Below, one piece after another: positions 47,079-59,796 of a stretch of 64,000 bases of DNA. The notes under the pieces are model-generated. The model was given only the letters and a program-made list of their open reading frames with translations, was not told the DNA's origin and did no database searches. The DNA is taken from NCBI GenBank assembly GCA_001542995.1, contig LFLA01000014.1, positions 62,001 to 126,000 on the forward strand, given 5' to 3'. The stretch is from Nitrospina sp. LS_NOB. Lineage in GTDB: Bacteria; Nitrospinota; Nitrospinia; Nitrospinales; VA-1. The translations under genes were made by a program, and so were the position numbers. How positions within the stretch are numbered: the stretch's first letter is position 1; every line of letters begins with the position of its first letter.

Positions 47079-48632
47079 ATGGCTGATTTCACACGCGAAG
47101 AAGTTGAAGAGAAGTTGGAAGAATACTCCGAACTGCTTGCATCCCGAGAAGAGGAAGACGAGTTCATAGATGATGAACCCGATGAAGAAAATGAAGAAGC
47201 TGTTAGTGAGGAAGAGGAAGGTTCTGACCAAGAGGAAGGTTCTGACCAAGAGGAAGGTTCTGACCAAGAGGAAGATCCCGACTCAGATGATAATCAGGAA
47301 GATGAAGTCATCAAGGAAGAAGAACCAGGTTTGGAAACTATTTTTGAGGAAAAGGACCTGTCCGGACTGGATCTCTCGGGACTTAATTTCCTCGGCATCA
47401 GTCTGAAAAAAGCCAATTTAAAAAATACCAATTTATCCGAATGTACGCTCGCAGAATCGAATTTGGACCAGGCTAATCTGGATCAGGCCAACCTCAGCGA
47501 CGCAGATTTGGAAAATATAAGTTGCCTGGAAGGCGTGATGACCCGTGCCAATATGGAAGCTGCAAACTTTCAAGGCGCCAAACTTCTGGGAACCGATTTT
47601 ACCAAATCCAATCTGGAAAGGGCAAATTTCAGAAGGTCCAAATCCATGGAAACCAAGCTGGTCCAATGCAATCTTCATGATACCGATTTCAGCAACTCTG
47701 ATTTCTCGCGGGCAAACCTGAAGGAAGCTAAAATAACAGATAGCGACCTGAGCCGGGCCCGGTTCAATGGTGCTGACTTTGAGGGAACCGATTTCACCGA
47801 TTCCAGGCTGAGTATGGGAGTCTTTTTTGAGGCAAACTTTAAAACCGCAAACCTCAATCGAGCCTTGATAAAAGGAGCGAAACTCGCGGGAGGAAATTTT
47901 TTCGGTGCCCAACTCACCCGCGCGGATATCACCGGAGCAGATCTCACCGGTGCCAGCTTTCACAACGCAGATTTGAGCCGCGCTAAACTAAATGGTGCCA
48001 TACTAAGAAGAACGGACCTTAAAGATTCGGATTTATCCGAAGCGGATTTAAATATCGCAGACCTGACAGGCGCTAACCTGGTTGGGACAAAATTGTCCGG
48101 TGCCAATTTAGACCGCATTAAATTGAACCAAGCCAAATTAAATGGCGCGCAATTGAGTGGAGCACGGATGACCAAGGCCAAATTAACGCAAGTTGATTTG
48201 ACCGGGGCAGATTTGAGTGGGGCCAACTTGACCGGGGCAGAATTAAATGAAGGTGTTCTGGAGGGGGCTGATCTCAGCAGGGCAAACCTGACGGAAGCGA
48301 TTTTGATAAATGCCAACTTGAAAAATGCTTTCCTGACCGGAGCTAATCTTCAAAAAGCAAATCTGGAAGGAGTCAATCTGGAAGGCGCAGACATGGCTGG
48401 AACTAAATTGAGAAAAGCCAATTTACAGAACGCAAACTTGAAGCAGGTAGATTTACGGCGGGCTGATTTGGAATTCGCCGACTTCTCCAAAGCAAAGCTA
48501 AACTCGGCAAATTTTACAGGGGCTAAAATGAGCGAAGGCCTGTTCATAGGAGCCGACCTGACAGGAACTAAAATGGACTCTGCCGATACCACGGACACCC
48601 AGTTTCAGGGAGCGATCGGATTAAAAATTTAA
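47079..48632 (+). CDS. large pentapeptide-repeat protein with acidic N-terminus
   Basis: 517 residues. An acidic region (1-85; long Glu/Asp runs and three perfect G-S-D-Q-E-E units) is followed by about 80 tandem A-(D/N)-L-x-x pentapeptides from residue 90 to the end, forming a right-handed beta-helix. The acidic head is unusual: pentapeptide proteins often mimic DNA, and acidic surface charge would strengthen that. No gyrase or resistance context is present, so function is open. Ribosome binding site CAGGAAGGA. Confidence 0.9.
   Translation: MADFTREEVEEKLEEYSELLASREEEDEFIDDEPDEENEEAVSEEEEGSDQEEGSDQEEGSDQEEDPDSDDNQEDEVIKEEEPGLETIFEEKDLSGLDLSGLNFLGISLKKANLKNTNLSECTLAESNLDQANLDQANLSDADLENISCLEGVMTRANMEAANFQGAKLLGTDFTKSNLERANFRRSKSMETKLVQCNLHDTDFSNSDFSRANLKEAKITDSDLSRARFNGADFEGTDFTDSRLSMGVFFEANFKTANLNRALIKGAKLAGGNFFGAQLTRADITGADLTGASFHNADLSRAKLNGAILRRTDLKDSDLSEADLNIADLTGANLVGTKLSGANLDRIKLNQAKLNGAQLSGARMTKAKLTQVDLTGADLSGANLTGAELNEGVLEGADLSRANLTEAILINANLKNAFLTGANLQKANLEGVNLEGADMAGTKLRKANLQNANLKQVDLRRADLEFADFSKAKLNSANFTGAKMSEGLFIGADLTGTKMDSADTTDTQFQGAIGLKI
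47214..47267 (+). repeat. three perfect 18-bp tandem repeats inside the pentapeptide gene
   Basis: GAGGAAGGTTCTGACCAA three times in a row, coding E-E-G-S-D-Q; a partial fourth unit follows. In-frame, so copy number could vary without breaking the gene. Confidence 0.9.
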
Positions 48633-53212: not shown

Positions 53213-54058
53213 TCAAATTCTTCGGACAAAATAATGGTGCGCCATTAAAGTTAAAAAATATTGAACAGCCATAACCCAGGCAAAAGAGACCAAACTGGTT
53301 GAAAGGATTCCAAGAACAGCGAACAGGGCAAGCAGAAAAAGTGGGAGGTCAAGCCCATTCCAACGCCAAAGCAGCAGCAGGATTTTTATTTTCTCGTAGC
53401 AGGCTTGGCGTTGCTCAAAGGTCAAGTCCAGTTGCAGGTCTTGATCCCGAGCTTCCACAAGACGCAAAAAACTCCATTGGCCCCGAAAAAATAATTGCTG
53501 CGCCTGCATATAATAAAAATAAAGCACCAGCACCCCCGACATTTTAGTCCGAAGCTTTTGGCGGGTATTTTGAATTTCTCGTTCCATACCATCATAGCCA
53601 TGTAATAGTAAAGTGACCAGACTCTGCTTGCAATAATCGTAAGAAATGGCCCGCACAATAATCAGTCCCGCAATGATTTTCAGGACTTGTCCGTGTTCTG
53701 GAAAACCTTTGATGAGCCCAACCATCACCGCAAGGTAGGCAAAATAACCGGCGATGCCATCAATCAACCTGCCCCATTCGCTGGCCATGCCCTTGGCCCT
53801 GGCCAACTGCCCGTCTACGCAATCCAGCACCAAAGTGACTTCCAGTAAAATTCCTCCCAGAATCATGGATGCCGGACTGGCAAAGCTGAATGCGTAACCG
53901 GAAGCAAACCCCACCAGAACAGAAAAATAAGTCACCTGATTTGGGGTCACTGGAGTGTCCTTCAAAAAAGCCACAATCTGCTTCGCAATCGGATCTTGAA
54001 TATAACGATTGACCGGCTCCACCAGATCTATGGGTGCGCGGCCCGATGTATCACTCAT
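53213..54058 (-). CDS. CDP-alcohol phosphatidyltransferase family protein
   Basis: 281 residues, about six transmembrane helices. The family signature reads D-C-V-D-G-Q-L-A-R ... G-R-L-I-D-G-I-A-G. Three of the four metal/base aspartates are present; the last position, normally Asp (D-x-x-x-D), is Gly here. Family members move a phospho-alcohol from CDP-diacylglycerol or a CDP-alcohol onto an acceptor. As the last gene of the sphingolipid-like operon it might add a phospho head group to ceramide (inference). The missing aspartate lowers confidence in standard activity. It starts 3 bp after the SDR stop. Confidence 0.8.
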   Translation of the reverse strand: MSDTSGRAPIDLVEPVNRYIQDPIAKQIVAFLKDTPVTPNQVTYFSVLVGFASGYAFSFASPASMILGGILLEVTLVLDCVDGQLARAKGMASEWGRLIDGIAGYFAYLAVMVGLIKGFPEHGQVLKIIAGLIIVRAISYDYCKQSLVTLLLHGYDGMEREIQNTRQKLRTKMSGVLVLYFYYMQAQQLFFRGQWSFLRLVEARDQDLQLDLTFEQRQACYEKIKILLLLWRWNGLDLPLFLLALFAVLGILSTSLVSFAWVMAVQYFLTLMAHHYFVRRI

Positions 54059-54061
54059 ATC

Positions 54062-55069
54062 CTATAACCATTTTTCCTGTTGATACCAGTTGATCGTCTC
54101 GGTCAGTCCTCGGTTCAATTCATACTGAGGTTCAAAGTCAAACGCTTTAAAAAACTTTGCCGGTGACGCAGACCATGAACTTTGCCGGATATCAATCATC
54201 CTCTGCCGATCAAACAACGCGGGCTTGGAACTGAAGCAAGCCAAAACCTCAAAGAACAAAGCTACCGGAATCAACATCCCTTCAGGAACTTTCAGGATTT
54301 TCATCCTAACATTCATTATACGTGCACACTCTTTTGCGACCTGCTCCCAGGCGTGAACATGGCCGTCTGTAACAAAATAGCTACGGCCTTCCTGTTTGGA
54401 GGGGTGGCAAGCTTGGAGCATTGCCTGAACCAGATCGGCAACATAAATCAGAGAAAGTTCTTTGCCCGCCCGGCCAATCTGCAGCCCCCATCCTTTCTGG
54501 ATCAATTTGATGAAAGTAAAAAAGTTTTCTTCCCGGGGACCATACACCACCGGAGGGCGTATAACGGTAACAGGCAGTGACCCCGAGTACTGCAAAGCAA
54601 TTTCTTCCCCCGCAAGTTTTGATTGCCCGTAAAAAGTCACAGGCTTGCAAGGGGTGGTTTCATCAACGAGATTGCCCTGGGGGCTGGGGCCGGTTGCCGC
54701 CAGACTGCTAAGATGAATAATGCTTTTGATCCGGCCTCCACGCTTCTGGCATTGCTCATACAAGTTTGAGCAGGCAGTGGCATTAACTTGAAAATAGCCG
54801 GAACGGGATTTTGCCTTGGTCAGTCCTGCACAGTGGAAAATGTAGTCCAACTCCTCCAAAGGGGGGATTACAAAATCCGGTCGCGCCAGATCCACCCTGT
54901 GAAGATGAACCCTCGAAGCATCCAGCCATTTGAGGTCAGAGGATTCCCTCACCAGTCCATGAACCGTGCAACCAGAGGCCAAAAGCTGGTCTACCAGATG
55001 ACTGCCGATGAAACCATTCGCGCCCGTAACCAGAGCCGTGGCCCCTTTAAGATGTGATGAGGCGTTCAT
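54062..55069 (-). CDS. extended SDR (NAD-dependent epimerase/dehydratase), CerR-like candidate
   Basis: 335 residues. NAD(P) motif T-G-A-N-G-F-I-G-S-H; active-site Y-G-Q-S-K (Y-x-x-x-K); H-L-S-S-L-A-A-T-G with the catalytic serine/threonine region; R-P-P-V-V-Y-G-P-R. In bacterial ceramide synthesis the third enzyme, CerR, is an SDR of this type, reducing the 3-keto group. The position between GNAT and head-group gene supports that role by analogy. It overlaps the GNAT gene by 23 bp, so they are translationally coupled. Confidence 0.8.
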   Translation of the reverse strand: MNASSHLKGATALVTGANGFIGSHLVDQLLASGCTVHGLVRESSDLKWLDASRVHLHRVDLARPDFVIPPLEELDYIFHCAGLTKAKSRSGYFQVNATACSNLYEQCQKRGGRIKSIIHLSSLAATGPSPQGNLVDETTPCKPVTFYGQSKLAGEEIALQYSGSLPVTVIRPPVVYGPREENFFTFIKLIQKGWGLQIGRAGKELSLIYVADLVQAMLQACHPSKQEGRSYFVTDGHVHAWEQVAKECARIMNVRMKILKVPEGMLIPVALFFEVLACFSSKPALFDRQRMIDIRQSSWSASPAKFFKAFDFEPQYELNRGLTETINWYQQEKWL

Positions 55070-56168
55070 AGATGCGATGTCTTTTATAAATAGTTCCCCC
55101 TATCCGGTACATCGGTTCGAGAATGCCTTTGTTATCCTCCAGCAACCAGGATATCTCACACCATTTAATCTTTTTTTCCAGAGACAACCTGTAGATTTCG
55201 TAATAAAGCCAAGCATCAATTCCCAGCCTGCGGTATTTTTTCTTCACACCCAGCGTCAGCACCCGAAAAACATCAATTTTATTTTTCTTCCATAAGAACC
55301 AAGCCCAGCCAAAGGGAAACAGGCTTCCATCCATTCCCTTAAGCACTTGATTGACATCGGGAAGGGCCAGGGAAAAACCCGCCGGTTCGCCCTTTACTTC
55401 GGCAATCAAGCAAAATTCAGGATGTATGAAGGATTTCATTTCCCTTGCAGAAAATTCAAATTCTTTTTGAGTCATAGGAACGAATCCCCAATTCAGACCC
55501 CACGCCGAGTTGTAGATATCCCAAAGAATGGAAATTTCTTTATCAAATCGGCTGAGATCCAAACATCTGACGGTGAAGCGATTCCTTTGTTTCAACTTTT
55601 TCGCGGCGCGCTCCAGATAATCCGGAACCTTAACAAAGTCCAGCCGTAACGCTAAAAGATCTTTGGCCTTTTGCAAACCCCACGCCTCAAAATGTTTCCC
55701 ATAATATTCTGGGTTATAGGGGATGCCAAACATGGTGGGAGAGTCAAACCCCTCTATCAGCAAGCCGCACTCATGGTTCGTCGACAAGTTCATCGGCCCC
55801 ATAAGACGGGCATGTCCTCTTTCCTGACACCATTGATAAGCCTTGTCCAGTAAAAGCCGGGAGAGACTCGGGTCATCCCCCGACTCAAACATGCCAAACA
55901 TGCCGACAGACTCTGAGTGAAGATCCTGATAGTTCCGATCATGAACCAGAGCGATCCTCCCTACCGGTGACCGGTTGTCATCCACCGCCAGAAAAAGATC
56001 GGCTTCCGCATGTTCAAAAAACGGGTTGATGTCGGGATTCAGGAATGTTTTACGTTCCCGGATAAGAGGAGGAGTCCAGCATGGCTGGTCTTTATAAATT
56101 TTCCAGGGAAGGCGGACGAACCGATCCAAGTCCTGTCGGGTTTCAACCTTTACGAGTTTAAAACCCAT
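55047..56168 (-). CDS. GNAT-fold acyltransferase, bacterial ceramide synthase candidate
   Basis: 373 residues, a YghO-like protein. The opening W-K-I-Y-K-D-Q-P-C-W-T-P-P-L and the C-terminal GNAT motif K-K-K-Y-R-R-L-G-I-D-A-W-L-Y are typical. Proteins of this family next to spt genes were shown in Caulobacter to be the bacterial ceramide synthase (bCerS), which N-acylates the long-chain base. The spt gene ends 2 bp upstream of this start. The role here is inferred from family and context. Confidence 0.78.
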   Translation of the reverse strand: MGFKLVKVETRQDLDRFVRLPWKIYKDQPCWTPPLIRERKTFLNPDINPFFEHAEADLFLAVDDNRSPVGRIALVHDRNYQDLHSESVGMFGMFESGDDPSLSRLLLDKAYQWCQERGHARLMGPMNLSTNHECGLLIEGFDSPTMFGIPYNPEYYGKHFEAWGLQKAKDLLALRLDFVKVPDYLERAAKKLKQRNRFTVRCLDLSRFDKEISILWDIYNSAWGLNWGFVPMTQKEFEFSAREMKSFIHPEFCLIAEVKGEPAGFSLALPDVNQVLKGMDGSLFPFGWAWFLWKKNKIDVFRVLTLGVKKKYRRLGIDAWLYYEIYRLSLEKKIKWCEISWLLEDNKGILEPMYRIGGTIYKRHRIYERLITS

Positions 56169-56170
56169 TA

Positions 56171-57502
56171 TTACCTGGGGATGATGCCGAGCTTTGTCCC
56201 CAGTTTCCTGAATGAACCAAGGACTTTGTCAAGATCCGTTTGGTCATGGGCAGAGGTATAGCTGGTCCGGATCATGGCATTGAGGGGTGGCACGACCGGC
56301 GACACCGCGACTCCGGCAAAAACACCGTCATCAAAAAGGAGCCTGTTCAAATAAAGTGTGAGGGCCTCTTCTCCTATTTTTATGGGGACTATAGGAATAG
56401 AATTGTTATTCACCTGAAAACCCATATCAAAAAAACCTCTTTTTATATAAGCGGTATTTTTCTGCAACTTTTCGATGCGTTCCGGCTCATTGATCATGAT
56501 ATCCAGACCCACAATGACCCCAGCAACCGATGCAGGCGGCAGGGCCGCAGTAAAAATAAACGCCGAGGCTTTATGGCGAATGAACTCGGTGATCTTGGAC
56601 TTTGCGGAAATAAATCCACCGATGGACCCCAGGCTTTTGGAAAACGTTCCCATATAAATATCTATTTCGTCTTCCAGATTGTAGTAGTTGGCGACACCCC
56701 TGCCACTTTCACCCATGACACCCAGGCCGTGAGCTTCATCAACCATGACGTTGGCCCCGTAGTCTTTTGCGAGTTTCACAATAGCTGGAAGGTTGGCAAT
56801 ATCACCGCTCATACTGAATATACTGTCGGTAATAATTATCTTGCCTTCAACATCCGAATATTTTTTTAAATAATATTCCAGATGATCCATATCATTATGC
56901 TGATAGCGGACTGTCTTTCCCGGTGCCACCCCACACCCTTCATAGATACTGGCATGGTTTTCCCGATCCGAAAAAGCTACATCCTTTCTCCCCAGGAGAC
57001 AAGCAATAGTTCCCTGATTTGCCTGGAATCCCGTGGACATGACAATGGTATCTTCTCGGCTCAAGAAAGAGGAAAGCTTCTTTTCCAGGGTCTTATGCAG
57101 ATTGAAAGTACCATTGAGAAAACGGCTACCAGTACAACCGATGCCAAATTTTTCCAATGCCTCCCGAGCCGCTGAAATCACGCGAGGTTCCTGGGCCAGC
57201 CCGAGATAATTATTGGTAGAAACGGAAATGACTTGCTTCCCGTCAATGACAACATGGCATCCATCAATTTCCTGGATTTCCCTGAAATACGGATAAATCC
57301 CCAGCTCCTTGGCCTGCTCCGGGGCAAAGTAGCCAAAGCATTTTGCCAGAATCCCTTTTTCTTTACTGTTGGGAGGGCGCAGGTGGGAATTTTTAAAATC
57401 AAACTTCTTTTTCAATAAAGAGGTGATTTTACTCTTCTTTAAATGAGCAGGTTCTTCGTCGTCACTTTCAAGTTCATTGAGCAGGGTAAAAGGTTTTGTC
57501 AT
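56171..57502 (-). CDS. spt: serine palmitoyltransferase-like alpha-oxoamine synthase
   Basis: 443 residues, PLP-dependent. Visible: L-G-I-Y-P-Y-F-R-E-I before the domain, S-T-N-N-Y-L-G-L, C-T-G-S-R-F-L-N-G-T-F-N-L-H, N-H-A-S-I-Y-E-G, D-E-A-H-G-L-G-V and the PLP lysine in G-T-F-S-K-S-L-G-S-I-G-G-F. The N-G-T-F-x-x-H and I-F-T-A-A-L-P-P segments are like bacterial serine palmitoyltransferases rather than Kbl or BioF. It condenses serine with an acyl thioester to a 3-keto long-chain base. There is a charged extension of about 50 residues at the N-terminus. Kbl-like function cannot be excluded, but no tdh is nearby. Confidence 0.85.
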   Translation of the reverse strand: MTKPFTLLNELESDDEEPAHLKKSKITSLLKKKFDFKNSHLRPPNSKEKGILAKCFGYFAPEQAKELGIYPYFREIQEIDGCHVVIDGKQVISVSTNNYLGLAQEPRVISAAREALEKFGIGCTGSRFLNGTFNLHKTLEKKLSSFLSREDTIVMSTGFQANQGTIACLLGRKDVAFSDRENHASIYEGCGVAPGKTVRYQHNDMDHLEYYLKKYSDVEGKIIITDSIFSMSGDIANLPAIVKLAKDYGANVMVDEAHGLGVMGESGRGVANYYNLEDEIDIYMGTFSKSLGSIGGFISAKSKITEFIRHKASAFIFTAALPPASVAGVIVGLDIMINEPERIEKLQKNTAYIKRGFFDMGFQVNNNSIPIVPIKIGEEALTLYLNRLLFDDGVFAGVAVSPVVPPLNAMIRTSYTSAHDQTDLDKVLGSFRKLGTKLGIIPR

Positions 57503-57552
57503 AAGTTTCTCACCCGAAATTTATAAAAAAATTCAAACCATGATCTATAGTT

Positions 57553-58608
57553 TCAGCAGGCGGCATGCTTCCACAACTGATTCAGTGCAGGAAGTAATCC
57601 CGAGCAAACGGTTTGACCATATAAGGAGTTCTCTCCCTGATCCCGAATCAGTCGGCGATGCGCCTCTCCTAATGCGTGATAAGGCAGGTCGGGAAACAGG
57701 TGATGCGTCGCATGAAAGCGAAGACCCACCGGCGCCCATAAAGGAGTCATCCATCTATTCCCGGGGATATTGACCGAGTCCAGCATTTGGCTTGGGTAGC
57801 TCATCGCATTTTCCTTGGGGTTTTGATAGCGGTGAGCCCCCAGGGTTCTAATGGAATTAACCATAAAAATCAATGCTCCAACACAGTACCACAGGAACAG
57901 GGATATCGCGGGAATAATTTTCAGGAGGACGGCCCCCAGAAATGCCCAGGCAAAAAGGCATGCCAAAAACTCCTGAATTTTCCAATCTTCAATATTCTTC
58001 CAGGAAGACTCCGGTCTTTGATAATCTAGATCAATGATCAGCGCCGACATCCTGGCCATCATGAATGATCTCAACTTTTTATTGACCAGAGATAATGGAG
58101 TTAATACTGAAAAGCGCGCTAAAAATATAATCGGAACCAGAAAAGAAAAAAGAACATGAATGACAATCCACTTCCTCCCCTTTAAAGCGAAGGGGAAATA
58201 TTCCCCATCTTTTTCGGTTCCATAAAAATTCTGTTTATGGTGATCTAGATGAACGAACTGATAAAGAAAAACGGGAACCATAAGAGGGAAACCACAAAGT
58301 ATATTCCAGACCCAACGGAACACCTTGAAGGCGCCCTTTTTGAAATGGACAATTTCATGGATGAATAAAACTGCCCGATACAAAGCCATGCAGGAGAGAG
58401 TCACAAAAAGGATTTGCCGGGAAGAAAGAACCGGAGACATGAGGGCAAGAACAAAAGCACCCCACCCGAGAATGGCGCTAAATAAAAAATCCAACCAGTA
58501 AATAATGGGATTAGGCCGAAAGAGATCTTTCACCAGTTCTCTTGCCCTGCCCATCGGAAAACTTTCTCGCTCCTTCTGTAAATTTTCATGGGCCTGTTGA
58601 GTCAACAC
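57553..58608 (-). CDS. fatty acid desaturase-family membrane enzyme
   Basis: 351 residues, GTG start with AGGA. Three histidine boxes of the di-iron desaturase/hydroxylase family: H-E-I-V-H, H-L-D-H-H and H-A-T-H-H-L-F-P (with a late Y-H). Four transmembrane helices in two pairs. It is the first gene before spt in the cluster, 50 bp away. It might desaturate or hydroxylate the long-chain base or acyl chain; this is a context-based inference. An ordinary fatty-acid desaturase is the alternative. Confidence 0.85.
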   Translation of the reverse strand: MLTQQAHENLQKERESFPMGRARELVKDLFRPNPIIYWLDFLFSAILGWGAFVLALMSPVLSSRQILFVTLSCMALYRAVLFIHEIVHFKKGAFKVFRWVWNILCGFPLMVPVFLYQFVHLDHHKQNFYGTEKDGEYFPFALKGRKWIVIHVLFSFLVPIIFLARFSVLTPLSLVNKKLRSFMMARMSALIIDLDYQRPESSWKNIEDWKIQEFLACLFAWAFLGAVLLKIIPAISLFLWYCVGALIFMVNSIRTLGAHRYQNPKENAMSYPSQMLDSVNIPGNRWMTPLWAPVGLRFHATHHLFPDLPYHALGEAHRRLIRDQGENSLYGQTVCSGLLPALNQLWKHAAC

Positions 58609-58635
58609 AGTGATCCTGTTCGTAATGACGGGTTG

Positions 58636-58974
58636 CTAATTTTTTTCCGCGCAGGATACGCACAGAACATTTTCCGGCATGAGCATAATGCGGCCTTCTG
58701 GAATCGGGTTGGCGCAACGGGCGCAGATTCCAAAATCCGGCAAGTCCACCTTGCTCAAGGCTTTTTCAAGCTTAAGCAGTTTAGCCTTTGACGAGTTCAA
58801 CGAAGCCTCGCTTATACCCTGACTGCCGAGCGCCTCCATTCGAGTGAGACGGCCTATAGCGTTGTCCGGAGCAACTGGCTTGGAGGTTATGGTGAAAGTT
58901 TCTATCAGGTGCTTTTGCACCTCGATCTCTTCAACGATTTTCTTTTTAAGTTCCGCTCTACCTTCATCATCCAT
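58636..58974 (-). CDS. DksA/TraR-type zinc-finger protein
   Basis: 112 residues from ATG 58974. C-terminal zinc finger C-A-R-C-A-N-P-I-P-E-G-R ... C-V-S-C, preceded by a helical hairpin. The D-x-x-D-A coiled-coil tip of true DksA is not obvious. It may modulate RNA polymerase with ppGpp or act as an operon-specific factor. It lies 28 bp before the desaturase, same strand. Confidence 0.8.
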   Translation of the reverse strand: MDDEGRAELKKKIVEEIEVQKHLIETFTITSKPVAPDNAIGRLTRMEALGSQGISEASLNSSKAKLLKLEKALSKVDLPDFGICARCANPIPEGRIMLMPENVLCVSCAEKN

Positions 58975-59007
58975 ACACGATCCTACCATTAATGCGTAAA
59001 ATTCGGG

Positions 59008-59796
59008 CTATTTTGAGGCAGGAACAAATCCGGACATCGCGCATCTCTGAGCCAACAGTGGAGTGAAACGGTCAGTATCCTGGGAGAGTTCTTCCATAAA
59101 CTCATTGGCCAGATTCTGGTCTTCAAAGCATTCGTAAATATCATCCAGAAATCCGCCGCGCAAAAGCGGATGCTCAAGGAAATCACGCCCCGAGCGGGTA
59201 AAAATTTCCAGCGGCCATTCGGTCACCTCGACCTGCTCCAGACCCAGTTCCTCCAGCCATTGTTTTGCCTGGTTGGCGGAAGGACGTTCCTCTATATACT
59301 CGGCCAAGGCCTTTCGTTCCTTGACCAGGTTTCTCTGTTTCATCTCCTCGTCCACGAGGTTCCATAAAGAGTCAAACGTTCCCAGCGAGGGAAACGTCAG
59401 CACAATTTGCCCACCCGGTTTTAAGAATCGGACCAGATTGCTGAGCGCCTCAAAACGATTCGGGCGAAAAAACATGAAAGAGAGGTTGCCGGTGATGCGG
59501 TTAAAACTGGGAAGTGTCGGGGGCAAAAAACGCATGTCCCCCACCTCAAACTGCAACCAAGGCAAATGCTGGCCCTGAATTGACCGGGAACGAAGCACCT
59601 GAGACTGGTGGATGTCAATAGCCAGAACGCTTCCTTGAGGTCCTACCTGTTCCGCCAAATGAAACGCCGGGATCCCTCCCCCGGCGGCGATGTCCAGCAC
59701 CGAGTCGCCCGGTTGCAGCTGTAGTTTATGCATCAACAGTTTTGCAAAAGGGGTGGACCAAGGGTCGTTTTCAGGCAAAGGCCAGGATGGGGTCAT
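59008..59796 (-). CDS. class I SAM-dependent methyltransferase
   Basis: 262 residues. Motif I V-L-D-I-A-A-G-G-G-I-P, then V-L-A-I-D-I-H, F-E-V-G-D-M-R-F and L-K-P-G-G-Q-I-V-L-T-F. UbiE-like in layout. No substrate can be assigned. First gene of the seven-gene minus-strand run, 33 bp before the DksA-like gene; divergent from the CbiX gene. Confidence 0.85.
   Translation of the reverse strand: MTPSWPLPENDPWSTPFAKLLMHKLQLQPGDSVLDIAAGGGIPAFHLAEQVGPQGSVLAIDIHQSQVLRSRSIQGQHLPWLQFEVGDMRFLPPTLPSFNRITGNLSFMFFRPNRFEALSNLVRFLKPGGQIVLTFPSLGTFDSLWNLVDEEMKQRNLVKERKALAEYIEERPSANQAKQWLEELGLEQVEVTEWPLEIFTRSGRDFLEHPLLRGGFLDDIYECFEDQNLANEFMEELSQDTDRFTPLLAQRCAMSGFVPASK

Follow-up and report, generated by a model that had tools for sequence, protein, structure and literature searches.

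Introduction

Genes for ceramide and ceramide phosphoglycerate have been described in Caulobacter crescentus (spt, bcerS, cerR, acpR, aasR, CC_1152-1161 and CC_0202; PMC11324152), and they share with the locus described here a serine palmitoyltransferase (SPT), a YghO-type acyltransferase and a CerR-type SDR, the last of which is reported to be periplasmic and to reduce 3-keto-ceramide. Two further proteins of the Caulobacter pathway are CC_1159, from the CDP-alcohol transferase family, and a hydroxylase of the DesA family (PMC11324152). On a wider scale, according to the main text of a Black Sea study, SPT-like proteins are encoded in MAGs from 38 phyla, often with homologues of bCerS and CerR close by (PMC11334938).

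In the marine water column, Nitrospinota outnumber all other known nitrite oxidizers (PMC10839748). Their family Nitrospinaceae, to which the genome studied here belongs, comprises the main nitrite oxidizers of the ocean. The original prediction held that a sphingolipid operon had not been described for the inferred lineage, and the searched literature agrees with it: we found nothing relevant on sphingolipids or the lipidome of Nitrospina or Nitrospinota, two Nitrospinota genome papers do not mention sphingolipids, and the main text of the Black Sea study does not name the phylum (PMC11334938).

Organization of the locus

The window that we analyzed, a stretch of 64,000 nucleotides from Nitrospina sp. 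LS_NOB (contig LFLA01000014.1), belongs to a genome of 2.65 Mb that is 98.8% complete, and carries seven closely packed, intact open reading frames on the minus strand, running from 59796 to 53213. The run starts with a SAM methyltransferase of the Methyltransf_25 type (59008..59796) and a DksA/TraR zinc-finger protein (58636..58989), both assigned with Pfam and NCBIfam, and continues with a membrane protein of the fatty-acid desaturase/hydroxylase family (57553..58608), an SPT-type alpha-oxoamine synthase (AOS; 56171..57502), a YghO-type tandem GNAT that is a putative bacterial ceramide synthase (N-acyltransferase; 55047..56168), an extended SDR that is a putative ceramide reductase of the CerR type (54062..55069), and a membrane protein of the CDP-alcohol phosphotransferase family, a putative head-group transferase (53213..54058). 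A gap of 50 bp separates the desaturase gene from the SPT gene; from there on, SPT and GNAT lie 2 bp apart, GNAT and SDR overlap by 23 bp, and SDR and transferase are spaced by 3 bp. For the five genes named in the original prediction, from the desaturase to the transferase, the intact frames, matching coordinates and agreeing Pfam and NCBIfam families bear out both identities and spacings, and the methyltransferase and DksA-like genes that it placed ahead of the desaturase are likewise present, intact and on the same strand.

Both flanking genes point in the opposite direction, the upstream one being of the CbiX/sirohydrochlorin type by the look of its sequence and the downstream one ArsM-like. 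Scans for promoters and terminators gave site numbers that were not above those of shuffles. Elsewhere in the window, positions 47079-48632 encode a protein of 517 residues; its N-terminus is acidic and rich in repeats, and numerous pentapeptide-like repeats come after it.

Identity of the core enzymes

The best NCBIfam match of the AOS protein is the CFB-type SPT model NF047600, with 457 bits against a cut-off of 640, which places it in the SPT clade yet does not assign it to that CFB equivalog, and the best solved structures in a PDB search were those of the Sphingobacterium SPT (7e-110). In a maximum-likelihood tree of 70 proteins, the Nitrospinota AOS proteins join the characterized SPTs of Sphingobacterium, Bacteroides and Sphingomonas together with all YghO-linked homologues, and the branch that shuts out Kbl and BioF from this group has support of 100/99. 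Within it, the Nitrospinota proteins form a clade of their own (100/100) on a long stem, with support of only 56/84 for its placement among the SPTs. The aligned equivalents of Sphingobacterium SPT residues N52, S81, H138, D210, H213, T241, K244 and R367 are all kept, and the SPT-characteristic motif GTFSKS is present, where Escherichia coli Kbl has GTLGKA and, at the S81 position, a valine. Tree and motif together rule out a Kbl or BioF identity for the AOS protein, and the original prediction of an SPT-like enzyme thus held. The sulfonolipid (cysteate) enzyme was also considered and rejected, with 217 bits in the PDB search versus 371 for SPT. Among other AOS genes in the genome there is a single clear one, which is BioF-like, and a third match is marginal. 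About 50 residues at the N-terminus of the Nitrospinota SPTs (window 56171-57502) form a conserved extension, with the consensus KRxKIxSxLKxKFDFxNxHLR, that is not found in the Sphingobacterium enzyme.

The GNAT protein is 37% identical to E. coli YghO-type proteins, over 99% of their length, and the YghO neighbors in E. coli and Pseudomonas loci are genes for SPT, ACP, an acyl-AMP ligase and a CerR-type SDR. Its structure model (pLDDT 92.6) matches tandem GNAT structures at 1e-14, and a search of the PDB for sequence relatives returned none. The SDR carries the motifs GxxGxxG and YxxxK, and with a profile built solely from SPT-linked SDRs of other phyla it scored 349 bits, whereas none of 18 other SDRs in this genome exceeded 164. 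The likeness of the two proteins to Caulobacter bCerS and CerR is drawn through the YghO-SPT-CerR-type loci of E. coli and Pseudomonas and not from the Caulobacter sequences. Membership of the GNAT in the YghO family, which adjoins SPT and CerR-type genes in many phyla, and the match of the SDR to specifically the SPT-linked kind agree with the SPT tree, and all three lines sustain the ceramide core that had been proposed for this locus.

Conservation of the gene order

We found SPT and GNAT genes adjacent, often along with the SDR gene, in Myxococcus, Rubrobacter, Streptomyces, Nitrospirota, Zixibacteria, Binatia and others. The triads of Myxococcus, Rubrobacter, Streptomyces, Nitrospirota and other phyla are homologous to that of Nitrospinota and often adjacent, with SPTs that are approximately 40-50% identical to the Nitrospinota ones, and in Myxococcus and two plasmids the order SPT-GNAT-SDR is the same as in Nitrospinaceae. 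Given its occurrence in so many phyla and in the Black Sea clusters, the triad is already known. Triads of other phyla lack a CDP-alcohol transferase of the Nitrospinota type, however, and a desaturase relative occurs in only a few of them.

Within Nitrospinota, the order SPT-GNAT-SDR-CDP-alcohol transferase is kept in 25 of 28 related loci, which argues against a chance arrangement of the gene row. The exceptions are two genomes with SPT-SDR only (G019 and G022) and one locus cut by its contig; these two genomes are without the operon-type GNAT, the transferase and the RND protein described below, and carry a different YghO paralogue elsewhere. A scan of named genomes with an alignment of the GNAT found its closest loci (GNAT 57-86%) in uncultured Nitrospina sp. 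and in Nitrospinaceae MAGs, the full seven-gene order was found in loci L061 to L064, and in genera g1 and g6 the methyltransferase and DksA-like genes accompany the operon. In G018, the GNAT gene (L023:7683-8805) is broken into two overlapping frames. In G019 (L197:5984-8330) and G027 (L199:5408-8090), a second YghO paralogue stands next to, and diverges from, the gene of a CDP-alcohol transferase resembling phosphatidylinositol-phosphate synthase and that of a PAP2 phosphatase, possibly marking another YghO lipid locus.

CDP-alcohol transferase

The last gene of the row matches PF01066 with 46.9 bits (gathering cut-off 22), and its family motif, DxxDGxxAR(x8)GxxxDxxxD, is incomplete in that the fourth aspartate (D4) is replaced by glycine. 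This residue is regarded as the catalytic base of CDP-alcohol transferases, so its absence makes the protein a member of the fold family but not a standard active enzyme. The glycine is found in all Nitrospinota copies examined except those of genus g14, which have aspartate, and D4 is kept in five other CDP-alcohol transferase-family proteins of the same genome, those for which the full motif was read. The nearest solved structures by profile, AF2299 (71 bits) and IPCT-DIPPS (44 bits), are also the nearest by fold; in comparison with them, most operon transferases lack D4, and they have a different C-terminal half and no nucleotidyltransferase domain. The structure model of the transferase, built from six sequences, is only moderate (pLDDT 69) and does not show what stands in for D4. 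The gene stays in the operon across three families.

With an inositol-1-phosphate synthase and a protein like IPCT/DIPPS (292 bits against a cut-off of 580) encoded in the same genome, CDP-inositol is a possible donor, a suggestion drawn from gene content. In one cluster (L206:6641-10516, G000:C24), what look like genes for inositol-1-phosphate synthase and a bifunctional protein of the IPCT/DIPPS kind are joined by apparent genes for an HD-type protein and one more CDP-alcohol transferase-like protein. C16 has a second homologue of inositol-1-phosphate synthase, whose gene is broken into two frames.

Desaturase-family enzyme

The desaturase-family protein matches PF00487 with 101 bits and has the conserved histidine boxes, and a search of the PDB gave no sequence relatives. 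Its gene lies within the operon in genera g1 and g6 and is absent from most other genera, and none of 41 genomes has it without the operon GNAT. In G021 (L221:4040-7502) it shares an overlap with the RND gene, both being on a contig that has no SPT gene, which ties these two accessory genes together. In other phyla, one 'Proteobacteria' MAG and two Binatia genomes have relatives with 38-39% identity near SDR-SPT-GNAT genes. A relative on a Sphingomonas parapaucimobilis plasmid directly adjoins a YghO-like gene, with SPT near, and another, on a Diaphorobacter plasmid, is separated by about 8 kb from a gene of the YghO family. The linkage is not universal, as no sphingolipid genes lie within 10 kb of a relative carried by a Sphingomonas panacis plasmid. 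Caulobacter CC_0202, of the DesA family, is reported to hydroxylate sphingolipids on their amide-linked acyl chain (PMC11324152), a comparison that we make by the published description and not by sequence. From the linkage and this precedent, the best guess is that the Nitrospinaceae enzyme modifies the acyl chain or the long-chain base.

HpnN-like RND protein

In 13 relatives from other genera, a gene for an MMPL/RND protein of about 800 residues directly follows the transferase gene, while in the genus of the window it is unlinked to the operon. The nearest NCBIfam models are HpnN and BstA, and HpnN, the hopanoid RND transporter of the same MMPL/RND family, is matched with 225 bits against a cut-off of 752. 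Of 41 genomes, 27 have both the RND orthologue and the operon GNAT, 12 have neither, and one each has just the first or just the second (Fisher p ~2e-8, with genomes treated as independent despite their kinship). Hopene cyclase, by comparison, is present in 37 of the 41, about ten of which are without the RND protein, so that the linked protein tracks the sphingolipid operon rather than the cyclase. The copy in the window genome (L196:5870-8262, G000:C17, minus strand) is split by a frame change, either real or an assembly error, and relatives have intact copies. In-frame stops that had been suspected in some RND genes are in fact upstream of the start codon.

Discussion

The ceramide-core reading is supported by homology, phylogeny, catalytic residues, gene order and co-occurrence, and judging by these sequence data the Nitrospinaceae row very probably makes ceramide-type sphingolipids. 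As an explanation of the row as a whole, we consider a sphingolipid operon likely. The following route, with its substrates, head group, lipid modification and transport and with acylation placed ahead of reduction, is what we infer. A 3-keto long-chain base would arise as the SPT-type enzyme condenses a long-chain acyl thioester with an amino acid, serine being the most probable; the YghO-type GNAT would N-acylate this base, and the SDR would reduce the 3-keto group to give a dihydroceramide. The CDP-alcohol transferase, as the presumed head-group enzyme, would put a phospho-alcohol on the 1-OH, with CDP-inositol as one possible donor; the desaturase-family enzyme would alter the acyl chain or the base, as reported for CC_0202; and the HpnN-like RND protein, elsewhere in the window genome and right behind the operon in relatives, would probably move the lipid.

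Compared with Caulobacter, where the acyltransferase gene is in a separate operon from spt, genes for an ACP and an acyl-AMP ligase accompany spt, and the transport genes are Lpt-like, the Nitrospinaceae genes form one compact operon with neither an ACP nor a ligase gene, and Nitrospinota relatives have the RND protein beside it. The Black Sea clusters are alike in having an SPT-like gene near homologues of bCerS and CerR, whereas head-group, desaturase and RND genes are not discussed in the main text of that study (PMC11334938). What is new here is the presence of putative head-group, tailoring and perhaps export genes beside a known triad, in Nitrospinaceae.

Other readings concern the base, the accessory genes and the transporter. 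The SPT-like enzyme could use alanine, glycine or another amino acid, and the product would then be a related N-acyl amino lipid such as a 1-deoxyceramide or a lipid with some other base. The long stem of the Nitrospinota clade and its unsettled placement among the SPTs (56/84) leave room for such a shift, and in the main text of the Black Sea work 1-deoxyceramides are reported to be numerous and SPT-like enzymes are proposed to accept other amino acids (PMC11334938). We regard it as unlikely, however, given that every position matching the serine-binding site of the Sphingobacterium SPT is conserved, that a linked CDP-alcohol transferase is sensible with a free 1-OH, and that the cysteate enzyme is much less similar (217 versus 371 bits). 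The accessory genes, for their part, might merely share a promoter with the core, the transferase being an altered or inactive relative and the desaturase acting on bulk fatty acids or phospholipids, with neither a sphingolipid enzyme. Such a view would fit the glycine at D4 in most transferases, the absence of the desaturase from most other genera and the lone desaturase relative on the S. panacis plasmid, but not so well the retention of the transferase in the operon in three families, a desaturase never seen without the operon GNAT in 41 genomes, and its relatives beside SPT and YghO genes in other phyla, and we judge it rather improbable.

For the RND protein, a role in hopanoid transport with incidental linkage to the operon is suggested by HpnN and BstA as best NCBIfam matches, though far under cut-off, and by the hopanoid genes of Nitrospinae (PMC8026999). 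We rejected this assignment as very unlikely, as hopene cyclase occurs in about ten genomes without the RND protein, which follows the operon GNAT nearly one to one and is adjacent to the operon in 13 loci. Returning to the sphingolipid operon, a more specific proposal, which we put forward tentatively and consider less likely than not, is that a transferase working without D4 builds a phosphosphingolipid of Nitrospinaceae, possibly ceramide phosphoinositol, by direct transfer from a CDP-alcohol, and that an HpnN-like RND pump is dedicated to moving this lipid. If true, this would be a route of head-group attachment and export unlike the kinase and Lpt-like route of Caulobacter.

The linked extra genes hint at a head-group enzyme and a lipid transporter that have not yet been assigned to sphingolipids. 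If the operon works as proposed, part of the marine sphingolipid pool could stem from nitrite oxidizers, and the long-chain bases of Nitrospinota could serve as biomarkers.
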